From assembly GCF_000316575.1 (NCBI RefSeq), contig NC_019682.1, positions 2,354,001 through 2,418,000 of the forward strand: a stretch of DNA of 64,000 nucleotides, read 5' to 3'. Numbering within the stretch: position 1 is the first letter of the stretch; each line of letters begins with the position of its first letter. The notes under the pieces were generated by a model. The model did not search any database. It was not told the DNA's origin and was given only the letters and a program-made list of their open reading frames with translations. This stretch comes from Calothrix sp. PCC 7507. GTDB lineage: Bacteria; Cyanobacteriota; Cyanobacteriia; Cyanobacteriales; Nostocaceae. The translations under genes were made by a program, and so were the position numbers. Shown one piece after another: positions 8,191 to 18,157 of this stretch.

Positions 8191-8898
8191 TTGTTAAGTA
8201 AACTTCCCGGTTTAGAGTTGATTCCCGCTTTATGGCTAGAGATTGCCATTGTTGCTGTTTGGGTATTACTCATTCTAGCGATCGCCTGGGGGATAAATCG
8301 TTTCGCCAATGATGATCCAGAAATTGTGCGGAAGATAGTTCATATTGGCACTGGCAATGTGATTTTGCTTGCTTGGTGGTTGAACATCCCTGCAAGTGTA
8401 GGCATTACAGCTTCAATTCTCGCAAGTGCTATCACCCTATTATCCTACCGATTGCCGATTCTTCCTGGCATTAATAGCGTCGGCCGCCAAAGTTTAGGCA
8501 CATTTTTTTATTCTGTGAGTTTCGGTATTTTAGTTGCTTGCTTCTGGTACTTACAACAACCCCAGTACGCAGCACTCGGAATTTTGGTCATGACATGGGG
8601 CGATGGACTAGCCGCCTTGATTGGACAGCGTTTTGGTAAACATAAATATAAAGTTTTTGGGGGACAAAAAAGCTGGGAAGGGTCTCTGACTATGACTCTC
8701 GTGAGTTATATTGTCAGTAGCTTAATTTTGCTAGGTGTGCAGGGTAACATCTGGTCAACTTGGGTTATATCATTGGTAGTGGCATTGGTAGCTACAGGCT
8801 TAGAAGCTTTTTCGTTTCTTGGTATTGATAATCTGACAGTTCCGTTAGGTAGTGCAGCCTTGGCTTTTTTCTTAATTCAGATGCTTCCGGTTGGCTAA
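8191..8898 (+). CDS. Phytol/polyprenol kinase family (VTE5-like) membrane protein
   Basis: A 235-residue protein with about seven membrane helices and the motifs EIVRKIVHIGTGN (residues 44-56), LVMTWGDGLAALIGQRFGKH and GQKSWEGSLTM. These are the CTP-dependent kinase signatures of the dolichol/phytol kinase group. Cyanobacterial relatives phosphorylate phytol released from chlorophyll for tocopherol synthesis. The assignment to phytol rather than another prenol is inferred. The start is a TTG; a start further upstream is not obvious. It is divergent from yidD. Confidence 0.82.
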   Translation: MLSKLPGLELIPALWLEIAIVAVWVLLILAIAWGINRFANDDPEIVRKIVHIGTGNVILLAWWLNIPASVGITASILASAITLLSYRLPILPGINSVGRQSLGTFFYSVSFGILVACFWYLQQPQYAALGILVMTWGDGLAALIGQRFGKHKYKVFGGQKSWEGSLTMTLVSYIVSSLILLGVQGNIWSTWVISLVVALVATGLEAFSFLGIDNLTVPLGSAALAFFLIQMLPVG

Positions 8899-9211
8899 TA
8901 GAGTTTGACGGAAATAACTGATTCAAAATAATACAGCACCATTTTTTTTCTGGAGAATCTTTGAAATACATGCTTGATAAAGCCCACCTTCTATATGAAG
9001 GAGGTGGTGAATTTCTACTGGTAGCAATTTTTAATAGGGTAATATTAGTCTATTGAAAGCAAGTGGAAAATCTTGTATCTACTTTAAGGAATAAAATTAC
9101 AAGTTTGATTTCTATCTTGAGATTTATGAATTTTTAGTAAACAGTGTTTATAGTTAAGTTCTTAGGTGGTACGGTCACGATCACCTGATTTTATAAGTTA
9201 GGCTAACAATC
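8899..9211. other. Spacer leading into the peptide island
   Basis: No gene is seen. An imperfect hairpin (CCACCTT / AAGGAGGTGG, near 8986-9012) may end the kinase transcript. Near the right end lies the leader-RNA hairpin of the first small gene (9164-9186, separate entry). Confidence 0.5.
9164..9202 (+). promoter_or_regulatory. Leader hairpin upstream of the first small peptide gene
   Basis: AGGTG (9164-9168) pairs with CACCT (9182-9186) and is followed by TATAAGTTAGG. The same order, a hairpin closed by AGGT/ACCT then TATAAGT and AGG, precedes the precursor genes at 15182 and 16148. Confidence 0.4.
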
Positions 9212-9454
9212 ATGTCCAATCAAATGATCACATCCGAGTTGTTTGCAGAGTTACCTCATCAGCAACAGGATCTGTGCGCTATTGATACCGATTTTGAGCT
9301 AGCTGGTAGTAATTGCGTTAGTAGGTTGGTAAGTTTGCCAAAAACAATCACTACCCCTCTCACCGGCAGCACAGATAACTCTATAGGTACTACGGCTCAA
9401 GTATTGGGGCGATTGAGTGCGCCAACTGTTCCTGGTGTTGGTGCATTGTCCTGA
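9212..9454 (+). CDS. Small peptide with a diverged export leader
   Basis: An 80-residue product. Its first half, MSNQMITSELFAEL, then a QQQDL segment, resembles the leaders of the four double-glycine precursors 6-7 kb downstream (MSxQxIxSDLL-x-DLS-x-EEQQ). Where they have GG it has ELAGSN after an extra DTDFE stretch. The C-terminal part is rich in Thr, Pro and Gly, without Cys clusters. It may be a diverged or decaying substrate of the exporter encoded at 12550. The start has an AGG three bases beyond a TATAAGT element. Confidence 0.55.
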   Translation: MSNQMITSELFAELPHQQQDLCAIDTDFELAGSNCVSRLVSLPKTITTPLTGSTDNSIGTTAQVLGRLSAPTVPGVGALS

Positions 9455-9835
9455 TGGGCTTTTTAGCAAGCGGCATAGGCTGGGCTGTAGCATAAAACAA
9501 ACTAACTTAACGATTTCCATAGGTGAATCAAAAAATCACCTGTTCCATCAAAGCACCTCGCCTCTTGAGGCTGGAAATGGTGCGTGGGGGTTCTTAAAGA
9601 ATCAAAAGTGAAGTTGCTTCCTCCTACCCCTACCAAAAATTTACAATTGTTATTTTAAATATCTGACCATTACAGAACTTACCCTGTTCAATTTTTCCAG
9701 GTAGTTCTTTGATTTGCAATAAGGTTTGGTTAAGAAGTAAGAAATAGATTTCTTACTCAAAACTGAAGTTACAGTTAGCTTATTGTGCAGGATTTTTAAC
9801 TGATATTTTATACCAGTTGCAAGAAGCAATTTAGC

Positions 9836-10095
9836 AGGACTTACGCAGCTGTCACAATTAAATGACCATTTGTAGGGTGGGCAATGCCCACCGAAACCCG
9901 TATATGGTGGGCATTGCCCAACGCCACTTGACGCCAGTTGCCTCTCCCAAGGGGAGACGCTGCACGTAGCTTGCTTCCCCGAAAAGGTACAAGTCGGGAA
10001 ACCCGCCCACGGCGCTGGCTCCTTTAAGCCGGGGAACCCTAGTCGAGCAGTGACTCCCCTACATGATTAAATTCTGTGACAGTTGCGTAAGTCCT
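9836..10095. mobile_element. MITE-like element with AGGACTTACGCA ends
   Basis: The left end AGGACTTACGCAGCTGTCAC and the right end (inverted) AGGACTTACGCAACTGTCAC are almost identical, and similarity extends into AATTAAAT. The 260-bp element has no open frame. It contains the palindromic repeat at 9871-9920 and a GGGAGACGC-rich part. Ends of this kind are common on small non-autonomous elements of filamentous cyanobacteria. Confidence 0.75.
9871..9920. repeat. GTGGGCATTGCCCAC dispersed repeat, copy C
   Basis: TAGGGTGGGCAATGCCCACC and GGTGGGCATTGCCCA flank a GAAACCCGTATAT centre. This copy lies inside the AGGACTTACGCA-bounded element. Confidence 0.75.
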
Positions 10096-10314
10096 ATTTA
10101 GTAGAGTGGGCAATGTACACTTTACTAATAACCAATTTAAAAAATGTAACAGATATCGCAAATTTGCTGTTAGTAACTATTAGCAGCATATGCTACTGTT
10201 TCACGATTAAGGTCAGCATATAGGTACATACGCTCAAGTATTTTGCAATTTCATGATTGCGTTAATTTGTGTTGTCTTCTTCATATAGGAATCCGATTTG
10301 AGTTTTGAAAAAAT

Positions 10315-10522
10315 CTAAGAGGTTGTTTGAAAAGGGTATTTCCATGTCATGTTAAATGCAGCGTAGCGGAATGTAGGCGTAGCCTTCCCGTTCGCGCAGC
10401 GTCTCCGTCAGGAGAAAGCTAACATCTGGATATGTGCCCCAAACCCTAGATTCTTCTTTACGCTACACTCCAGTCAGAATGACAAAATTATACCTTTTTG
10501 GAGTTTTAAAACATCCTCTAAG
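10315..10522. mobile_element. MITE-like element with CTAAGAGG ends
   Basis: The left end CTAAGAGGTTGTTTGAAAAG is matched in inverted orientation by the right end TTTTAAAACATCCTCTAAG. The 208-bp interior has no open frame and includes the dispersed sequence GTAGCCTTCCCGTTCGCGCA. It looks like a non-autonomous transposon remnant. Confidence 0.6.
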
Positions 10523-10594
10523 TATTTGTAGCCCACCATGTTCCGGGTTTTGGTGGGCAATGCCTACTTAATATTTCAAAAATCAAATACTAGT
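10521..10594. repeat. GTGGGCATTGCCCAC dispersed repeat, copy D (core inverted)
   Basis: The outer arms (AAGTATTTGTAG and TTTCAAAAATCAAATACTAG) match copy A at 641-723, but the central CCGGGTTTTGGTGGGC is its reverse complement. This suggests inversion of the hairpin core. Confidence 0.65.
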
Positions 10595-10661
10595 CCTATA
10601 GGACATTGAGATAACCCTAATTTTTGTTCATCGAATAATTGAAAATAAAGGGTAAAGTGCA

Positions 10662-12458
10662 GTGAATTCCTTACAAAATGAGGAAAACTATTTTGAGAAT
10701 AGATTTGATGATGAGCATCTGAGTTTAGTTGCAGCTAATGAATTCCTTCCCCATATTGGTAAATGGATAAATATTGGAGGAGGCGTTTTAGTCAGTACTT
10801 TGGCGATCGCTCTAGGTCTGACATCAATTCTCAATTACAATGTCACAGTCAAAGTTCCTGCAAGTATTCGCCCACAGGGAGAACTACGCGTTATTCAGCC
10901 TGCGATTAGCGGTACTGTGCAAAAGATTGCAGTCACAGAAAATCAATCCGTTACACAAGGGCAAGCGATCGCTTACATTGATGATTCCCGCCTTCAGAAT
11001 CAAAAGAGCCAATTAGAAAGCAATATTCAACAAAGCCTATTACAACTCAATCCCATTGATGCTCAACTCGGTGAAATCAATGCCCAGATTACAGCACAGA
11101 CAAACTTAATTAATCGCACGGTGATAGCTGCACAAGCTGAGTTAGACGGTACTCAACGCAACTATGAAGATACTCTAATCAAAGCCACAGCAGATATGAC
11201 CCAAGCATCAGCCGCCTTGACGTTGGCTAAAGTACAACGAGACAGATTACAACGAGAAAAACTTTTAACAGCAACTGTGGAAGAAACAGCCGCCGCTTTC
11301 AACTTAGCTAGAACGCAACGAGACAGATTGCAACGGGAAAAACTCTTAACAGCAACTGTGGAAGAAGCTGAAGCCGCCTTGAACTTAGCAAAGGTGCAAC
11401 AAGACCGATTACAGCGGGAAAAACTCTTAACTACGACTGTGGAAGAAGCCGAAGCCGCCTTGAACTTAGCGAAGGTGCAACAAGACCGATTGCAGCCAAT
11501 AGTAGCGTCAGGAGCAATTTCTCGCAGTTTTTTTGAAGAAAAAGCCCAAGTGGTGAAATCGGCCCAGGCGAAGCTAGAACAAGCTAAAGCTAATGCCAAA
11601 AATCTCTTGGAAGAAAAAGCCCAAGCGGTGAAATCAGCCCAGGCGAAGCTAGAACAAGCTAAAGCTAATGCCAAAAATCTCTTGGAGGAAAAAGCCCAAG
11701 CGGTGAAATCAGCCCAGGCGAAGCTAGAACAAGCTAAAGCTAACGCTAAAAATCTCCAAGAAGAAAAAGCCCAAGCTCTGACGATCGCACAAACAAATCT
11801 AGAAAAAGCTAAAACCGCTATCAATCCAAGTAACGCCACTGTAACTATGGCATCTGAACGCATTAAACAAGAACAGGCTAGAGGTGAGGCTATCTTAGCA
11901 GCGCTGAATAAAGAAAGAGAGACTCTGCTGCAACAACGCCTAGAATTTCAAAAACAACTTGATACCACTCGCAAACAACTACAACAAGTAGAAACTGACT
12001 TGAATCAGAGTGTGGTGAGAGCGCCAATCACGGGTACTGTGCTGCAGCTAAATCTTCGCAACCCAGGACAGGTAGTGCAGCCAAGTGAAGCGATCGCCCA
12101 AATCGCCCCTCTTAACGCTCCAACAGTGATCAAAGCTCAAGTACCGGCTCAAAGCATTGACAAAGTGAAGATTGGTCAAAAAGTCCAAATGCAAGTTTCA
12201 GCTTGTCCTTATCCTGACTTTGGCACTCTGACGGGGACTGTCAAAACAATAGCACCAGATGCCCTACCAGTAGAAGCCAACAGCATTAAAGTAGCTACCT
12301 ATGAGGTCACTATAGAGCCAAAAACTACATATCTCGGTAGAGGCGATCGCCAGTGTCATTTGAAAACTGGGATGGAAGGTAGAGCCGATATCATTTCCCG
12401 CCAGGAAACAGTACTCCAGTTCATTCTTCGCAAAGCGCGATTACTCACAGACGTTTAA
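10662..12458 (+). CDS. HlyD-type membrane fusion protein for peptide export
   Basis: A 598-residue adaptor with an N-terminal cytosolic part, one membrane anchor (about residues 36-58), a split biotinyl/lipoyl domain (IRPQGELRVIQPAISGTVQKI and later VVRAPITGTVLQLNLRNPGQ), a long alpha-hairpin, and a C-terminal barrel near residues 490-580. The hairpin tip is probably QPIVASGAISRSFFEEKAQ (about 276-294). The ascending arm carries three 27-residue repeats and the descending arm three 25-residue repeats. It would link the ABC exporter encoded downstream to an outer-membrane channel. The start is GTG, overlapping no other gene. It is presumably co-transcribed with the exporter, 91 bp away. Confidence 0.88.
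   Translation: MNSLQNEENYFENRFDDEHLSLVAANEFLPHIGKWINIGGGVLVSTLAIALGLTSILNYNVTVKVPASIRPQGELRVIQPAISGTVQKIAVTENQSVTQGQAIAYIDDSRLQNQKSQLESNIQQSLLQLNPIDAQLGEINAQITAQTNLINRTVIAAQAELDGTQRNYEDTLIKATADMTQASAALTLAKVQRDRLQREKLLTATVEETAAAFNLARTQRDRLQREKLLTATVEEAEAALNLAKVQQDRLQREKLLTTTVEEAEAALNLAKVQQDRLQPIVASGAISRSFFEEKAQVVKSAQAKLEQAKANAKNLLEEKAQAVKSAQAKLEQAKANAKNLLEEKAQAVKSAQAKLEQAKANAKNLQEEKAQALTIAQTNLEKAKTAINPSNATVTMASERIKQEQARGEAILAALNKERETLLQQRLEFQKQLDTTRKQLQQVETDLNQSVVRAPITGTVLQLNLRNPGQVVQPSEAIAQIAPLNAPTVIKAQVPAQSIDKVKIGQKVQMQVSACPYPDFGTLTGTVKTIAPDALPVEANSIKVATYEVTIEPKTTYLGRGDRQCHLKTGMEGRADIISRQETVLQFILRKARLLTDV
11223..11495. repeat. 81-bp tandem repeat in the adaptor gene
   Basis: Three full units start at 11223, 11304 and 11385, with a partial fourth from 11466. 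Each encodes a 27-residue coiled-coil segment containing DRLQREKLLT. Confidence 0.92.
11535..11770. repeat. 75-bp tandem repeat in the adaptor gene
   Basis: Three nearly identical units start at 11535, 11610 and 11685, with a partial fourth from 11760. Each encodes a 25-residue segment containing EKAQAVKSAQAKLEQAKANA. Confidence 0.93.
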
Positions 12459-12493
12459 TCCCCGGACACTGAGCGTAGTCGAAGTGCAATCCC

Positions 12494-12581
12494 CATTCCC
12501 TAACCATGTTCCAAATATTCAAACTCGGTAAAAACTACATTCCCTAACCATGTTCCATATATTCAAACTCGGTAAAAACTA
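12494..12581. repeat. 44-bp tandem duplication across the exporter start codon
   Basis: Bases 12494-12537 and 12538-12581 are identical but for one base. Each holds the start ATG and the first codons of the exporter gene. The first copy therefore forms a 13-codon upstream frame (12506-12547) whose TAA ends 2 bp before the real ATG at 12550. Confidence 0.92.
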
Positions 12582-14718
12582 CCAGTGTGTTTTACAGTCA
12601 AGTGAAGAAGACTGTGGAGCCGCCTGTATAGCCACGATTTGCAAACATTACAAACGCTTCCTTAGCATCACTCGTAGTCGTGAAGCAGTAGGTACTGGAC
12701 AGCTAGGAACAACTTTATTGGGTCTAAAACGTGGATCTGACGATCTGGGTTTTCATGCCAGAGCAGTGAAAGCTGCACCTGCGATCGTAGACAGAATCCA
12801 AGAATTGCCACTGCCAGCCATCATACATTGGCAAGGCTACCACTGGGTTGTTTTATATGCCCAGCAAGGCAGAAAATACATCATCGCCGATCCATCTGTA
12901 GGTATCCGTTATGTTGATCGTGAAGAGTTAACAGCAGCTTGGAATGGAGTCATGCTCTTATTAGAGCCAGATCCAGAGCGCTTTTATGAACAGCCAAAAG
13001 AAGCAGCAAAAGGTGGCTTCGGGCGCTTTTTTCAACGCATCCTACCTTATCGGGGATTGCTAACTCATGTTTTGCTGATCAATATCGTCATGGGTTTACT
13101 GGCTTTAGGTACACCCATCCTCATCCAACTACTCACAGACGATGTTCTGGTTCGTGGAGACACTCAGTTACTCACTGTTGTTGTGTCGGCCGTGATTGTC
13201 ATGAGCTTGTTCAGTAGCAGTCTACAAGTATTGCAAGCCACTATGGTGGCTCATTTTGGTCAACGGCTGCAATTAGGGCTAGTCTTGGAGTTTGGGCGCA
13301 AAATTCTGCACTTACCTTTGAATTATTATGAAGCCCGACGCAGTGGTGAAATTACTAGCCGACTACGTGATATCAATGAAATCAACCAGTTAATATCACA
13401 GATTGTCGTTCTTTTACCTAGCCAGTTCTTTATTGCAGTAGTGTCTTTCTGCTTGATGCTGTTTTATAGCTGGAAGCTGACACTAGCAGTCATCTTCATC
13501 GCGGTTTTAATGACCCTCTCGACTCTCCCTTTTCTCCCCATCCTCCAACAAAAAACCCGCAGTCTCTTGGTTTTGAGGTCAGAAAATCAAGGCGTTTTGG
13601 TGGAAACCTTCAAAGGCGCACAAGTGCTGAAAACTACAAATGCAGCTCCGCAATTTTGGGATGAATTCCAAAGTCGTTTTGGTCGCCTTGCCAATCTTAC
13701 TTTCAGCACCATTCAAATCGGAATTATCAACGACACTGTGTCTCATTTCCTTTCCACCATTGGTGGCGTTATGTTATTGGGATTAGGAAGCATTTTGGTA
13801 ATTCAAGGCGAGTTGAGTATTGGTCAAATGCTAGCTTTTAACGCCTTACAGGTGAATGTGCTGAATTTAGTTAACTCGTTGGTTGGTTTCGTGGATGAAT
13901 ATTTTCGGTCCCAAACCGCCATCTCTCGTCTCTTGGAGGTCATCGATGCTACACCAGAAGTAATCGGCGGTGGTCAAAAGCCGATTGTAAAAATCTCTGG
14001 CGGTGCAGACATTCATTGCTCCCATCTGCAATTTCATCATCCTGGGAGAGTTGACTTATTAGAAGATTTTTCTCTCAGGCTTCCAGGAGGAAAAGCGATC
14101 GCTTTAATTGGTCAGTCAGGTTGTGGTAAAAGTACTTTCGCCAAACTATTAGGTGGCTTATATCAAGCGAATTCCGGCAATATCCGGATCGGTTTTTTTA
14201 ATATACAAGACCTTTCTCTTGATTCCCTACGACAACAAGTCGTTTATGTACCCCAAGAACCTCACTTCTGGAGTCGCTCGATTTTAGAGAATTTTCGCTT
14301 AGGAACACCTAACATTTCTTTTGAGGAAATTGTCAAAGCTTGCCACATTGCTGATGCAGACGGTTTTATCAGTCAACTCCCCAATCAATATCAAACTGTT
14401 TTAGGGGAGTTTGGGGCTAATCTTTCTGGTGGACAAAGACAACGATTAGCGATCGCTCGCTCAATTCTCACCGATCCACCTGTACTGATTCTAGACGAAG
14501 CGACTGCCGGACTCGACCCAGTCAGTGAATCTCATGTGCTAGACCGACTCTTGGAACATCGCAAAGGTAAAACTACAATTCTGATTACCCATCGTCCCAG
14601 TGTCGTCCATCGAGCTGACTGGATCGTGTTACTCAACAAAGGTGAAATACAACTACAAGGAACTCTCGATACTTTTCTCTCTCAGCAAGGAGAACATCTA
14701 AAGTTTTTAACAATTTGA
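12550..14718 (+). CDS. Peptidase-containing ABC transporter (C39 bacteriocin exporter)
   Basis: A 722-residue protein with three parts in order. The N-terminal C39 cysteine peptidase has Gln16, Cys22 in EEDCGAAC, His98 in GYHWVVLY and Asp114 in IIADPSVG. The six-helix ABC membrane domain spans about 160-450. The nucleotide-binding domain has Walker A GQSGCGKST near 520, signature LSGGQRQR near 625 and PPVLILDEAT. Such transporters cut double-glycine leaders and export the core peptide. All catalytic residues are present, so it should be active. Likely substrates are the GG precursors at 15182-16660. A terminator follows at 14886. Confidence 0.96.
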   Translation: MFHIFKLGKNYQCVLQSSEEDCGAACIATICKHYKRFLSITRSREAVGTGQLGTTLLGLKRGSDDLGFHARAVKAAPAIVDRIQELPLPAIIHWQGYHWVVLYAQQGRKYIIADPSVGIRYVDREELTAAWNGVMLLLEPDPERFYEQPKEAAKGGFGRFFQRILPYRGLLTHVLLINIVMGLLALGTPILIQLLTDDVLVRGDTQLLTVVVSAVIVMSLFSSSLQVLQATMVAHFGQRLQLGLVLEFGRKILHLPLNYYEARRSGEITSRLRDINEINQLISQIVVLLPSQFFIAVVSFCLMLFYSWKLTLAVIFIAVLMTLSTLPFLPILQQKTRSLLVLRSENQGVLVETFKGAQVLKTTNAAPQFWDEFQSRFGRLANLTFSTIQIGIINDTVSHFLSTIGGVMLLGLGSILVIQGELSIGQMLAFNALQVNVLNLVNSLVGFVDEYFRSQTAISRLLEVIDATPEVIGGGQKPIVKISGGADIHCSHLQFHHPGRVDLLEDFSLRLPGGKAIALIGQSGCGKSTFAKLLGGLYQANSGNIRIGFFNIQDLSLDSLRQQVVYVPQEPHFWSRSILENFRLGTPNISFEEIVKACHIADADGFISQLPNQYQTVLGEFGANLSGGQRQRLAIARSILTDPPVLILDEATAGLDPVSESHVLDRLLEHRKGKTTILITHRPSVVHRADWIVLLNKGEIQLQGTLDTFLSQQGEHLKFLTI

Positions 14719-14885
14719 CACTAAGTAGTTGGACACAATTAAATTCATTCGTGGAGATAGGGAACAGAAAACAGAAAGATAATGTGTGTAATTAATTCTG
14801 TTTAACTACATACCTGACAAGTACATCTCAGCATCCATTGAGATTTTTCCCAAAACAAAATCGGAACTAATATTATTCCTGAATG

Positions 14886-14918
14886 ATACCCGAATTCTTA
14901 AAAAAATCGGGTATTTTT
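14886..14918 (+). terminator. Rho-independent terminator after the exporter gene
   Basis: ATACCCGA (14886-14893) pairs with TCGGGTAT (14907-14914), followed by a T run. It would end the adaptor-exporter transcript and leave the precursors on their own promoters. Confidence 0.75.
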
Positions 14919-15137
14919 GGTTGGCAATAACTCTAAAAAAAGAGCTATTTAACTTATATTTTGCATACTATCTTTGTTAGAAAAATAAAATATTTGTAAT
15001 CAACAAAAACAAATTATTAAACTTTAAAGAAAGGATATTTTTTAAAGTTATCATGAATCCAAAGAAATATTTTTTTAATACTAGAATTATAACTTTAGAC
15101 TCATTAAAATAATAAGCTAGTTATTAATAATAAAAAC

Positions 15138-15173
15138 ATAGGTGAAGAACACCTATATAACATAAGTGAGGCA
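15138..15173 (+). promoter_or_regulatory. Leader hairpin upstream of precursor 1
   Basis: ATAGGT (15138-15143) pairs with ACCTAT (15151-15156), followed by ATAACATAAGTGAGG, which contains the ribosome site. Precursor 3 has nearly the same block. Confidence 0.55.
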
Positions 15174-15181
15174 ATTAATTT

Positions 15182-15394
15182 ATGTCAACTCAAATGCTCA
15201 TGTCTGATTTGCTAACAGATTTATCCACAGAAGAACAACAGATTCTAGCCGGTGGACAATTTACAAGTGAAGACGAAAGTGAAGACGAAGACAAAGGTGA
15301 AAGTGAAGGTACAGGAAGAGTCCTTGGTTCCCGTCGCCTTTACAGAATTAGGAGCATAGGAAGAGCAATTGTTAGCGTTCAAAAACTGCGCTAA
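15182..15394 (+). CDS. Double-glycine leader peptide precursor 1 (bacteriocin-like)
   Basis: A 70-residue precursor. The leader MSTQMLMSDLLTDLSTEEQQ ends at ILAGG (GG at residues 24-25), the site cut by C39 exporters. The core begins QFTSEDESEDEDKGESE, strongly acidic, and then turns basic (GSRRLYRIRSIGRAIVSVQKLR), a likely amphipathic cationic helix. It matches the short double-glycine bacteriocin-like precursors known in cyanobacteria; activity is inferred. The conserved hairpin and TAAGTGAGG ribosome site precede it. A strong hairpin follows at 15431. Confidence 0.82.
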   Translation: MSTQMLMSDLLTDLSTEEQQILAGGQFTSEDESEDEDKGESEGTGRVLGSRRLYRIRSIGRAIVSVQKLR

Positions 15395-15430
15395 TTTTTG
15401 GAGTTGGTGTGAGGAGAAGAATCATATAAC

Positions 15431-15459
15431 TAGCTCAAAATATAATTTATTTTGAGCTA
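15431..15459 (+). terminator. Hairpin after precursor 1
   Basis: TAGCTCAAAA (15431-15440) pairs perfectly with TTTTGAGCTA (15450-15459). No clean T run follows, so it may stabilise or attenuate rather than terminate. The GCTCAAAA/TTTTGAGC stem recurs after precursor 4. Confidence 0.55.
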
Positions 15460-15682
15460 AACTGGGCAATTTATTATGTTCTTTTAAGGCATTAACTAGC
15501 CTGCCCAGAAAAAAAGAAAGCTAGGTTCTATAATATACTTAGTACCTAGCTTTATCCTTACTCCAAATACAAGTTTTTAATATGTAGCTAAAGTGTTAGC
15601 CATTTTTGCACTCATCAATGTGTTTTTAATAAATGGGTGTGACCCTAAACCAAACCTTTGCATGAAATTGAGGTAAACAATT

Positions 15683-15856
15683 ATGTCATCACAAATTATC
15701 ACATCTGATTTGCTCATGGATTTATCCATAGAAGAACAACAGCTTCTATCTGGTGGAAAAAAAGGAAGCGATGATGACGACGACTGTTTAGAAAAATGTT
15801 TGAAAGATAAAGGATGCTGGAAAAAGTACAAAAAATGTTACGATAAATGCGATTGA
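15683..15856 (+). CDS. Double-glycine leader peptide precursor 2 with twin CX3C core
   Basis: A 57-residue precursor whose leader, MSSQIITSDLLMDLSIEEQQ, ends in LLSGG (GG at 24-25), nearly identical to those of its neighbours. The 32-residue core opens KKGSDDDDD, then carries Cys35, Cys39, Cys45, Cys52 and Cys56, spaced CX3C-X5-C-X6-CX3C, with many Lys. Two CX3C pairs around a turn suggest a disulfide-linked helical hairpin; the fifth Cys could dimerise or be modified. A GAGG ribosome site lies 10 bp before the ATG. It is too short for common gene-calling limits. Confidence 0.82.
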   Translation: MSSQIITSDLLMDLSIEEQQLLSGGKKGSDDDDDCLEKCLKDKGCWKKYKKCYDKCD

Positions 15857-16103
15857 TAGGACGACTGATTAGTCAATCAATCGTATTTACTCGCTAGTTT
15901 GGTAGTTTAAAGTTTCCAGTAGCTATGGGGAAGAGTAGGATTAATTCTATTCTCCCCTTACTACATGTCTAAATATTTTTTTGACTAATTTTAATTTTTA
16001 ATATTTGAAAAGGCATTTCGTATAAGTCAAAAGTCAGATATTTATCTAATTTATTTCTAACTATAGAATAATTTAAATTGGAGGGAAATATTTAATTATA
16101 GAC

Positions 16104-16138
16104 ATATAGGTAATGCCAACCTATATAAGTAAGTGAGG
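16104..16138 (+). promoter_or_regulatory. Leader hairpin upstream of precursor 3
   Basis: ATATAGGT (16104-16111) pairs with ACCTATAT (16119-16126), followed by AAGTAAGTGAGG with the ribosome site. The loop sequence differs from that before precursor 1 while the stem is kept, which suggests conservation of structure. Confidence 0.6.
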
Positions 16139-16147
16139 TAAAAAAAT

Positions 16148-16396
16148 ATGTCGTTTCAAAGCATCACATCTAGCTTGCTAATTGATTTATCCACAGTGGA
16201 ACAGCAGCTTCTAAATGGAGGACAAGTATCGACTCCAGGGGGACAAACTGCGACTCCCAGAGAAGGAGTATCCAGTCCCGAATCCGTCGAAAATGACACA
16301 GAAGAAAGTTCCGAGGAAGATACGTCATCTTGTTCTAAATCCCGCCGTCGTCGCCGCTTTCCCATACGCCTTTCTGGCTATCTTTATTACAGATAA
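16148..16396 (+). CDS. Double-glycine leader peptide precursor 3
   Basis: An 82-residue precursor with the leader MSFQSITSSLLIDLSTVEQQ and LLNGG at 21-25. The core has a Thr/Ser/Pro segment, then an acidic stretch (ENDTEESSEEDTSS), a single Cys and the basic tail SKSRRRRRFPIRLSGYLYYR. The acidic-then-basic order repeats that of precursor 1, although the sequences are not alike. It is probably exported by the C39 transporter. The start is set by the AAGTGAGG ribosome site 10 bp upstream. Confidence 0.8.
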   Translation: MSFQSITSSLLIDLSTVEQQLLNGGQVSTPGGQTATPREGVSSPESVENDTEESSEEDTSSCSKSRRRRRFPIRLSGYLYYR

Positions 16397-16486
16397 TTGG
16401 GCGAAAACTCCAAATTTAGGAATCGCATAATTTAGAATTTGGCAAATAACGTTTCATACCTATTTACAACATGGAGGGAATTAATC

Positions 16487-16660
16487 ATGTCAAATCAAGT
16501 CATCGACTCTGATCTGCTTGTGGAATTATCCACTGAGGAACAGCAGCTTGTATCTGGGGGAAGTTATGGTATCTACGGCGGCTATTCCCCTTCCAGTAAA
16601 TTCTTTGGTCGTTGTGGCTTCTTTGGTCGTCGTAGCTTCTTTGGTCGTGGCTTCTACTAA
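16487..16660 (+). CDS. Double-glycine leader peptide precursor 4 with FFGR repeats
   Basis: A 57-residue precursor. The ATG at 16487 is chosen because GGAGGGAA lies 7 bp upstream and the product then begins MSNQVIDSDLLVELSTEEQQ like its neighbours; the frame is open further upstream without that match. Cleavage would follow LVSGG (21-25). The core is rich in Gly, Tyr, Phe and Arg and contains FFGRCG, FFGRRS and FFGRGF, encoded by three 18-bp tandem units (16601-16654). One Cys is present. It may be a cationic aromatic peptide. Confidence 0.8.
   Translation: MSNQVIDSDLLVELSTEEQQLVSGGSYGIYGGYSPSSKFFGRCGFFGRRSFFGRGFY
16601..16654. repeat. 18-bp tandem repeat in precursor 4
   Basis: Three units of TTCTTTGGTCGT plus six variable bases, each encoding FFGR and two further residues. 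Confidence 0.9.
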
Positions 16661-16735
16661 GACTATAAAGGCAATAGATTAGGTAGTCTCATAGATGAAA
16701 TTTTGTAATTACTGGAGGATAGAGAAGACTTGCAT

Positions 16736-16770
16736 AACTTGCTCAAAATAAATCAAGTTTTGAGCAAGTT
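16736..16770 (+). terminator. Hairpin closing the precursor cluster
   Basis: AACTTGCTCAAAA (16736-16748) pairs perfectly with TTTTGAGCAAGTT (16758-16770), 13 bp. It lies between the last precursor and a convergent minus-strand gene and could serve both strands. The inner stem is the same as that at 15431-15459. Confidence 0.65.
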
Positions 16771-16791
16771 TAACATTCTCCTAAAAGTAAA

Positions 16792-17712
16792 TTATGCCTC
16801 TAGCTGTATAGATTTTAATACTGCCGATCGCTCCCATATCCAGTCCTGTAAAATCGGATTAACTAACTCAGGAGCTTCATCTTGTGGACAATGTCCCACT
16901 CCTTCTAAGGGGATAAACTTTTGCACTTGCGGGTAATTCGCAAACTCTCTCCCCAAATCCACTGGTTCCCAAGGGTCAGCTGTACCCCATAAAATAATTG
17001 CTGGACAAGGTAGCAAAGGTAAAAGGTCTTCAGGTAGAGGCCCTGTTGAATAAGCGGTGAACGCCAAGAACACTGCAGCAGCACCCGGATCACTTGCTGG
17101 TGCAGTCAGTATATCTACTAATTCGTCTGTCACCGTTGCCGAATCAGCATAGGCTTGCAGTAGAATCTTCCGCACAGTTTTTGGCTTGGCGACTTGATTG
17201 AAAAAGAACTCGCCAACTGGTTTTATAGATAATAAACGTTGTAAGAAGGGTGCGCCAAAACGACGCGACCAGGGTAAAGTTGATCTTTTGCGATCGTGTA
17301 ACAGCCTTAGAGAACAATTTAGCAAAGCAACACCCAAGGCAATATCAGGATTGCTCACTACTGCTTGCATAGCTACAATACAACCGATAGAGTTTCCCAC
17401 TAAAAAAGCTGGTTCATTCACCACTTCCCGGCAAAAATCTGCTACTTGCTGTCCCCAAGTTTCTAGTGTGTAAGCAATTTTTCCCCCTGGTTGAGGTTTA
17501 GATGAACTACCAAAACCAATTAAGTCAAGAGCGTAAACACGACAATTCTCTGCTAGCACAGGTATATTTTGCCGCCAGTGCCACCACGAAGCTCCAAAAC
17601 CATGTACGAGGACAACAGCTGGCCCAGTGGTTCCTTGGGTCTGATAGCTGATGGGAAATCCTTGCCAAATCCAAGTTTTGGGTGAGGTAAATGTGTTTGT
17701 AGAAGTTGTCAT
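16792..17712 (-). CDS. Alpha/beta fold hydrolase
   Basis: A 306-residue hydrolase. It has the oxyanion HGFGASWWHW segment near residues 37-46, the nucleophile elbow LVGNSIGC with Ser108, the acid region WGTADPWEP, and the catalytic His in GVGHCPQDEAPE. It resembles the pheophytinase/MenH-like group common in cyanobacteria, some of which act on chlorophyll derivatives; the substrate is not determined. The ATG at 17712 is preferred over an in-frame TTG six bases upstream. It converges on the peptide cluster and is probably not part of it. Confidence 0.88.
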   Translation of the reverse strand: MTTSTNTFTSPKTWIWQGFPISYQTQGTTGPAVVLVHGFGASWWHWRQNIPVLAENCRVYALDLIGFGSSSKPQPGGKIAYTLETWGQQVADFCREVVNEPAFLVGNSIGCIVAMQAVVSNPDIALGVALLNCSLRLLHDRKRSTLPWSRRFGAPFLQRLLSIKPVGEFFFNQVAKPKTVRKILLQAYADSATVTDELVDILTAPASDPGAAAVFLAFTAYSTGPLPEDLLPLLPCPAIILWGTADPWEPVDLGREFANYPQVQKFIPLEGVGHCPQDEAPELVNPILQDWIWERSAVLKSIQLEA

Positions 17713-18157
17713 GATCAATTAAAGCGATGGATACAAGGTTCAGACATGGATTTTTTCTCACCGGAGGCTGCGTTATTTTGTTTGTTATTCAAATAAATAG
17801 TTTAGTAACTAATCCCCAGTCCCTAATCCCCAGTGCCTCTTACATCAGTAATGTTACTTATATTAATTATAATTTACATTTCGTAATTTTCAGTTTTTTC
17901 TCCCAAGCAAGATTACTGAAACTACTGCAATACTTTTACTATTTGTGGTAGCTAGTTTGTGAAAATTACAAGCTTATGGGATGTAATGTGATGAAATTAG
18001 CACCAGTGTTAGATTCAGTAGTTTTACAATTTACGACAAGCGAATTGGTCTATAAAATTGTGGGATATTAAGCATCTGCTAAGGAGTAGTTTGAACTGGA
18101 AAGTGACGCTGAATTTAACAAGATTTTTTTGTTCCTACTTCCTTCGAGTTCAAGAAG
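17713..18157. other. Spacer between divergent genes
   Basis: No gene is supported. It is AT-rich with a short CCCCAGTCCCTAATCCCCAG stretch. Promoters for both flanking genes are presumably here, but none can be picked with confidence. Confidence 0.5.

Follow-up and report, generated by a model that had tools for sequence, protein, structure and literature searches.

One C39 exporter probably serves a family of double-glycine precursors that share a leader and an upstream module in Calothrix sp. PCC 7507

The window analysed here, a stretch of 64,000 nucleotides of Calothrix sp. PCC 7507 (contig NC_019682.1, positions 2,354,001 to 2,418,000), lies within a genome assembled as a single contig of 7.02 Mb. 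It contains a Nostocaceae type I secretion locus in which one C39-peptidase ABC exporter and an HlyD adaptor probably serve a whole family of precursors, each made of a copied cassette fused to fast-changing cargo. The leader of these precursors, the double glycine (GG) at its end, a module that precedes the start codons and the exporter are conserved and linked, and the secretion address appears to start before the start codon, in the shared upstream module. Reading rightwards, a leader-bearing small gene is followed by the adaptor, the exporter and four further small genes, which are putative substrates of the exporter:

9212 to 9454, plus strand: fifth leader-bearing gene, CTB-like, with the leader kept and GG lost (NF038167, 22 bits over residues 1-64)
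10662 to 12458, plus strand: HlyD-type membrane fusion protein, 598 residues, GTG start as listed, with tandem repeats
12550 to 14718, plus strand: C39-peptidase ABC exporter of the short type, 722 residues (from Pfam domains and alignment with solved C39 domains)
15182 to 15394, plus strand: precursor 1, 70 residues, with GG leader, acidic spacer and basic tail RLYRIRSIGRAIVSVQKLR
15683 to 15856, plus strand: precursor 2, 57 residues, with GG leader, Asp run and five-Cys core
16148 to 16396, plus strand: precursor 3, 82 residues, with GG leader, Ser/Pro/acidic spacer, then Arg5 followed by FPIRLSGYLYYR
16487 to 16660, plus strand: precursor 4, 57 residues, within a longer TTG frame, with GG leader and FFGR repeats

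Between 9212 and 16660 the list of open reading frames (ORFs), read without a profile search, holds no further long ORF on the plus strand. An initial annotation had described the four precursors, their common leader and the adjoining adaptor and exporter genes, and this observation is confirmed; its interpretation, that the system swaps cargo behind a constant address, is partly supported by the results below. The leader-bearing gene at 9212 went unmentioned there, though the stretch that it described starts at this gene, and the module before the start codons was missed as well.

In all four precursors GG occupies residues 24-25, thus closing a leader of 25 residues, and any two leaders are identical at 16-18 of 25 residues and 53-62 of 75 bases. 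A regular expression used initially to find GG leaders proved too strict (two ORFs) and was replaced by profiles. In particular, a profile built from 50 leaders of other species, with those of the window left out, recovers the four precursors from the 7.0 Mb genome at E-values of 2.3e-14, 1.4e-12, 1.6e-11 and 5.9e-9 and gene 9212 at 4.1e-6, and the next genome match stands at 0.28. A chance likeness of the leaders is rejected on these values, which lie far below that of the next match. Structure models predict helices in the leaders at low confidence.

The wider sample comprises exporter relatives with cyanobacterial titles, mostly from Nostocaceae (80 kept of 306 found); 60 loci, the window counted among them, are treated as close. 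A second, iterated profile, seeded with the four window leaders and run over the 80 loci and the window, collected 289 precursor-like ORFs at E < 0.01; since this profile includes GG, its ORF set cannot gauge the conservation of GG. Downstream precursors are found in 55 of the 60 close loci, at one to five each, and upstream precursors in 47. Among the five loci that yield no downstream match, two (L031, L058) have a full flank and three (L033, L064, L085) end near the exporter.

Many precursors are preceded by the same parts: a -10-like hexamer, a spacer of 7-8 bases, an AGGT(G)...(C)ACCT palindrome and a GAGG Shine-Dalgarno site, with AAGTGAGG as a common k-mer. In the window, these parts are placed as follows:

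9146 to 9214, plus strand: module of gene 9212, with TATAGT at 9149-9154, TAGGTGG at 9163-9169 and CACCT at 9182-9186; its loop is longer than usual
15123 to 15184, plus strand: module of precursor 1, with AATAAT at 15126-15131, palindrome at 15138-15156 (ATAGGTG/CACCTAT) and GTGAGG
15622 to 15685, plus strand: weak module of precursor 2, with a clear Shine-Dalgarno site and a poor palindrome
16091 to 16150, plus strand: module of precursor 3, with palindrome at 16104-16126

In the close loci, GAGG falls within the 20 bases that precede the start codon in 61 of 77 upstream and 129 of 142 downstream precursors. The controls, 486 ORFs of 200 codons or more taken from these loci, have it in 21 cases; their starts are first ATGs and possibly wrong for some. 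The AGGT..ACCT palindrome precedes 31 of the 77 and 61 of the 142 (about 1 and about 3 in shuffles) and 5 of the 486 controls. The hexamer most like a -10 box, usually AATAAT or TATAGT, precedes the palindrome by 7-8 bases in 62 of 92 cases, versus 12 of 219 for random anchors. This signal is visible only when anchored on the palindrome, and a simple scan for sigma-70 promoters gives no excess (8 found, 9.1 expected). With the hexamer at that distance, the palindrome would sit at the 5' end of the message. Further up, the sequences are conserved but differ between upstream and downstream genes.

A covariance model of the module was built from 39 sites, two of them from the window. Run over the 7.0 Mb genome, it gives four matches at E <= 10, each of which ends on a precursor start codon, and two of these (9212 and 15683) are outside the training set. 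The module of gene 9212 scores 46.3 bits (E 8.7e-5); those of precursors 1 and 3, both in the training set, score 63.5 and 61.2 bits. Among 40 genomes, including that of the window, the model has 27 matches at E <= 0.1 in 10 genomes, and at E <= 0.001 it matches in 99 of 208 genomes of the family. The exporter, at an identity of at least 76%, is found in 103 of 217 genomes among the matches listed, to which unlisted fragments may add. When the two sets are paired by hand, module and exporter occur together in 97 genomes, the module only in 2 and the exporter only in 6.

In parallel, 131 of the 150 module matches listed (more exist) lie within 12 kb of the exporter. The remaining 19 do not lie within that distance on the same contig, and all of them start a GG-leader ORF, one with GG shifted; some, such as two on contig G208:C8 near the contig end, may represent the same locus split by assembly. 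Nine of these 19 distant matches precede an orphan type of precursor, which combines a stretch rich in Asp and Arg with a C-x-Y-C-Y-D-C tail that is conserved (L168, L173, L174, L176, L177 and L179-L182).

As the module can be located irrespective of the protein, it was used to read 28 sites, namely the 27 matches at E <= 0.1 and a weak match in the genome of the window. The initial annotation had named drift of the GG site in close relatives as a result that would speak against its proposal. A GG-leader ORF follows at 21 of the sites and GR replaces GG at 1; at the other 6 the ORF is decayed, cut short or lacks a start. Five of these six are on the upstream side of the exporter, the position of the 9212-type gene, and the sixth (G174) reads MSCQLIANE and then a stop. 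The outcome is thus split: GG holds at most of the sites, and the failures fall mainly on one position. Gene 9212 itself carries ID in place of GG at residues 24-25 and is probably decaying. An upstream gene without GG is also present in L029, and in another genome of the same genus only a possible remnant of the upstream gene is detected (E 0.15). In many species the core of the upstream gene is fairly conserved, such as ADFELAGSNFANRLANLQGTT.

These decayed upstream genes, in the window and in several relatives, are what could be expected if the four ORFs were not real substrates at all, their leader likeness being left over from duplications and their cores drifting. We regard this as very improbable, as 21 of the 28 sites defined by the module still have a GG leader, five of the seven failures belong to the upstream site and the Shine-Dalgarno sites are retained. 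In addition, the proportion of amino-acid-changing differences (pN) is below that of silent ones (pS) in core 2 and in the core-1 tails. For core 2 and its match in Goleter apudmare (L029), pN is 0.16 and pS 0.87, over only 23 codons with 9.5 changing and 7.5 silent differences. For the core-1 tails of six species pooled, pN is 0.27 and pS 0.69, over at most 14 codons in pairs that are not independent.

The module is not a known RNA family, since none of 4227 Rfam models matches positions 8500-17800 of the window at E <= 1. An antisense terminator is a poor fit for the palindrome, since there is no A-tract in the upstream class (one site scanned in this way). The palindrome may act as DNA, being an operator where the transcript starts, and not as an RNA hairpin at the 5' end; the probability of this is only a little short of even. 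An operator would explain why the arm sequence is nearly invariant, why stems at this position whose arms lack AGG or GGT do not exceed background (11 of 219 precursors versus 28 of 486 controls) and why covariation is weak (term -0.06; changes on both sides in 1 of 6 pairs). It would not account as readily for a spacer that varies from 6 to 9 bases, with 82 of 86 distinct sites at 7 or 8, nor for a second outer pair that is Watson-Crick in 66 of 86 sites (shuffled mean 44, maximum 56), although this pairing tracks the upstream and downstream classes. Folding z-scores below -2 are also commoner than in controls (21% of 77 upstream and 37% of 142 downstream sites, versus 10% of 250). Within the window, only the stretch before precursor 1 folds far better than its shuffles (-10.7 kcal/mol, z -3.6); those before gene 9212 and precursor 3 reach -1.8 and -1.4, and one stretch stands at +1.1.

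As to the cargo, the four cores had been said to have nothing in common. This holds within the window in so far as no two of the four cores, in six pairings, score clearly above shuffles, the best pair, cores 1 and 3, being equalled by 10% of 500 shuffles; it does not hold for their plan, as cores 1 and 3 both run from acidic to basic. The description of core 2 as a twin CX3C peptide likewise needs one addition, since its five cysteines (C-x3-C ... C ... C-x3-C) include one between the two pairs. When the four cores were compared with 140 distinct downstream cores of relatives, with 100 shuffled queries as baseline, 6, 1, 4 and 1 relatives' cores, for cores 1-4 respectively, scored above all shuffled queries. 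In the set to which core 1 belongs, the acidic stretch varies and the basic tail is conserved, with the consensus YRIRSRSIVRVRRL. Core 3 is also built on the acidic-then-basic plan, but its tail is a different one, which reads P-I-R-L-[ST]-G in 7 of the 8 aligned. Core 2 has a single strong match, the one from Goleter apudmare. Core 4 is of a repeat-rich aromatic/Gly/Arg type, which stands last in 30 of 34 loci that have such a core and at least two downstream precursors. An ad hoc composition rule, descriptive only, divides 142 distinct downstream cores of the close loci into 38 aromatic/Gly/Arg, 30 Cys, 29 acidic-basic and 45 other. The model of precursor 1 shows a beta-hairpin in its tail, with strands at 51-56 and 62-67 (predicted local distance difference test score 74-79 by block; predicted template modelling score 0.25), so that a hairpin is proposed with moderate confidence; no strand is predicted in the model of precursor 3. 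Cores thus differ between neighbours and between species, as the idea of swapped cargo requires, but not arbitrarily: because they match relatives' cores and share plans, the cargo appears to vary within recognisable types.

From these elements a most likely sequence of steps can be proposed. Each precursor would consist of a copied cassette to which cargo is joined. Such a cassette would typically hold a -10-like box, a palindrome where the transcript is predicted to begin, a strong Shine-Dalgarno site and a leader of helical form, and each gene would be transcribed from its own promoter. The leader would dock in the C39 domain and be cut after GG, in line with the cleavage of GG-ending leaders by C39 domains during export (PMC10986499; this and the papers below are cited for the parts covered), and the core would leave via HlyD and a channel in the outer membrane whose gene lies elsewhere. 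Once outside, the cargoes would most likely serve as peptides of the surface or matrix, like EbfG1-4 of Synechococcus, which is the least certain step. In that organism, efficient secretion of EbfG1-4 depends on the Cys of PteB, and peptides starting after GG or GA were detected (PMC4997328); EbfG1-3 assemble into amyloid structures, and EbfG4 is located both at the surface and in the matrix (PMC9981879). We lean towards a surface or matrix role by analogy with this precedent and because the cores are repeat-rich and no immunity gene is recognisable.

Alternatively, the cores could be bacteriocins or allelopathic peptides directed against other microbes. The literature classes such clusters as bacteriocins (PMC3140520), all five genes are weakly similar to the NCBIfam "CTB family bacteriocin", and Cys-rich, basic-tailed and Gly/aromatic cores would suit such activity, as would the net charge of +5 of core 4. 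A CTB cluster of Nodularia is also up under phosphate starvation (PMC9846622), although its correspondence to the present locus could not be mapped. On balance we find an antimicrobial role unlikely: cores 1-3 have a net charge of only 0 to +1, no immunity gene was recognised by eye in the ORF list of 9212-16792, for which no profile search was made, and the one experimentally tested set of cyanobacterial GG peptides, in the parts of the literature covered, makes biofilm proteins. Signalling between cells of a filament or population is less plausible still and would be a surprising outcome. Pheromones also leave via C39 exporters, and differentiation in Nostoc depends on HetC, itself a C39 exporter (PMC10986499), but HetC, as far as that source covers it, lacks an adjoining membrane fusion gene, unlike the present exporter. 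Fast core change within the family and low-complexity repeats are ill-suited to a receptor, and no receptor or kinase gene was recognised by eye beside the locus in the ORF list.

Several observations weigh against the proposal of one exporter serving a cassette-borne family. Precursor 2 has a weak module match (30.9 bits, E 0.14, outside the training set; fold z -0.7), and precursor 4 has none in the genome search at E <= 10, with GGAGGG preceding its start. The training sites were picked for AGGT..ACCT, so that the invariant columns of the model arise partly by construction. The exporter occurs without a module match in G067 and G177, which are negative, and in G068, G122, G126 and G176, which are negative or outside the searched set; conversely, G044 and G174 have the module and no exporter among the matches listed at 76% identity or above. 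The leader is less exclusive than the module, with a match in 43 of 60 genomes of the family, including genomes without this exporter at that identity (e.g., 19 matches in G082 and 10 in G085). Moreover, genomes are related by descent and their counts not independent, the tests of selection on core 2 and the core-1 tails rest on few codons, and the matrix role is drawn by analogy. Mature EbfGs reportedly lack homology to proteins of other cyanobacteria (PMC4997328). With these points included, the service of a precursor family by one exporter is still considered likely. A broader proposal is an even call: promoter, palindrome, Shine-Dalgarno site and leader may form one heritable cassette that defines an exported-peptide regulon in about half of the Nostocaceae genomes searched, orphan genes away from the exporter included. 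The AGGTG/CACCT palindrome at the transcript start would then be a control element not described before, either an RNA hairpin at the 5' end or an operator, by which the messages are co-ordinated or stabilised, and new secreted peptides would arise when a C-terminal sequence is fused to the cassette.

The secretion genes themselves are readily assigned. Residues 11-653 of the 722 of the exporter span Peptidase_C39, ABC_membrane and ABC_tran in a Pfam search, the cyclic-nucleotide-binding domain CAP_ED not being among the matches. Its Cys22, His98 and Asp114, numbered from the alignment, align with those of solved C39 domains (77 bits), which we take to be the catalytic residues, and the exporter is apparently intact. 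The adaptor is of the HlyD type (HlyD_3, E 3.9e-21). It contains two blocks of tandem repeats at 11203-11813 of the window (81 bp x 3.6 and 75 bp x 3.2), and in 58 relatives its length ranges from 496 to 710 residues, with clusters near 502, 554 and 606 and steps of about 52 residues, as if both arms of the coiled-coil hairpin grew together. The start region of the exporter is duplicated:

12494 to 12582, plus strand: 44-bp tandem duplication across the exporter start region, whose upper copy forms a 13-codon mini-ORF with its ATG at 12506

This duplication was not found in the 58 close loci checked, and the mini-ORF could dampen translation of the exporter. A leader-like ORF directly follows the exporter in several relatives (L027, L078 and L039, at +2367, +2199 and +2198 from the exporter start), such as NPEWFRDLSEEEQETLAAG; the ORF list of the window has none of at least 40 residues there. 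The gap between gene 9212 and the adaptor contains repeat-like stretches at 9860-10060 (GTGGGCATTGCCCA) and 10340-10560 (GGCGTAGCCTTCCCGTTCGCGCAGCG) of the window, presumably of a kind common in Nostoc.

The genome has eight C39 domains above the Pfam cut-off and a second precursor cluster (L021):

L021, 9298-11479 and 11914-14070: two ABC proteins, accompanied by HlyD and seven GG precursors with other leaders
L021, named by eye: CAP_ED-like protein, response regulator and histidine-kinase-like protein

The leaders of these seven precursors differ from the present one, e.g. MSVENQTAIELSEQELDVVAGG, and they are absent from the matches listed for its profile in the whole-genome search.

The layout of the locus fits a known kind, the short-transporter group III clusters of Wang et al. 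2011 (PMC3140520), which have a short C39 exporter and HlyD, no LanM and no second ABC protein, together with several GG precursors (3.89 per cluster on average) with very little core conservation. Indeed, the present exporter lacks CAP_ED by Pfam, HlyD is present, and the ORF list, judged without a profile search, has no LanM, second ABC transporter or SurA. There is therefore nothing new in varied cargo behind a constant leader as such, since the same authors stress the low core conservation and the multiple precursors of cyanobacterial clusters, one to sixteen each. The parts of their paper covered describe neither a shared module of promoter, palindrome and Shine-Dalgarno site nor core types that recur across species at one locus, and in the openly licensed literature, within the limits of such a negative, we recognised no description of the module and its tie to one exporter, orphan precursors included. 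Most cyanobacterial GG peptides lack a known function. The module offers a DNA signature from which they can be predicted without recourse to protein sequence; it also picks up orphan precursors, links them to one exporter and suggests joint production. The locus is a clean case of a secretion address reused for fast-changing cargo and yields a small set of testable peptides in filamentous cyanobacteria.

Among other known systems, the CTB family NF038167 resembles the present genes in the leader region, and gene 9212 also matches into the core part. All five genes lie below its cut-off of 32 bits (22, 22.4, 21.9, 12.8 and 28.6 bits), unlike five of the seven precursors of the second cluster, which lie above it with another leader. 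Solved C39 exporters (PDB 8vp3, 4ry2 and 7n87, which we take to be PCAT1) share the aligned Cys, His and Asp, with Cys replaced in 7n87; presumably they work without an HlyD adaptor, which the present exporter has. As in double-glycine substrates of C39 exporters generally, the four precursors have a GG leader beside a C39 exporter gene, which gene 9212 does not. Prochlorosins (PMC10783134) also combine a conserved GG leader with variable cores and have precursors scattered over the genome, but they differ in their Nif11-type leader and their ProcM-type modifying enzyme, a kind not recognised at the present locus. The nearest experimental precedent is the EbfG1-4/PteB/EbfE system of Synechococcus elongatus PCC 7942 (PMC4997328, PMC9981879), in which four small GG proteins rely on one C39 transporter; ebfG1-4 are co-transcribed, whereas here most precursors seem to have a start module of their own.

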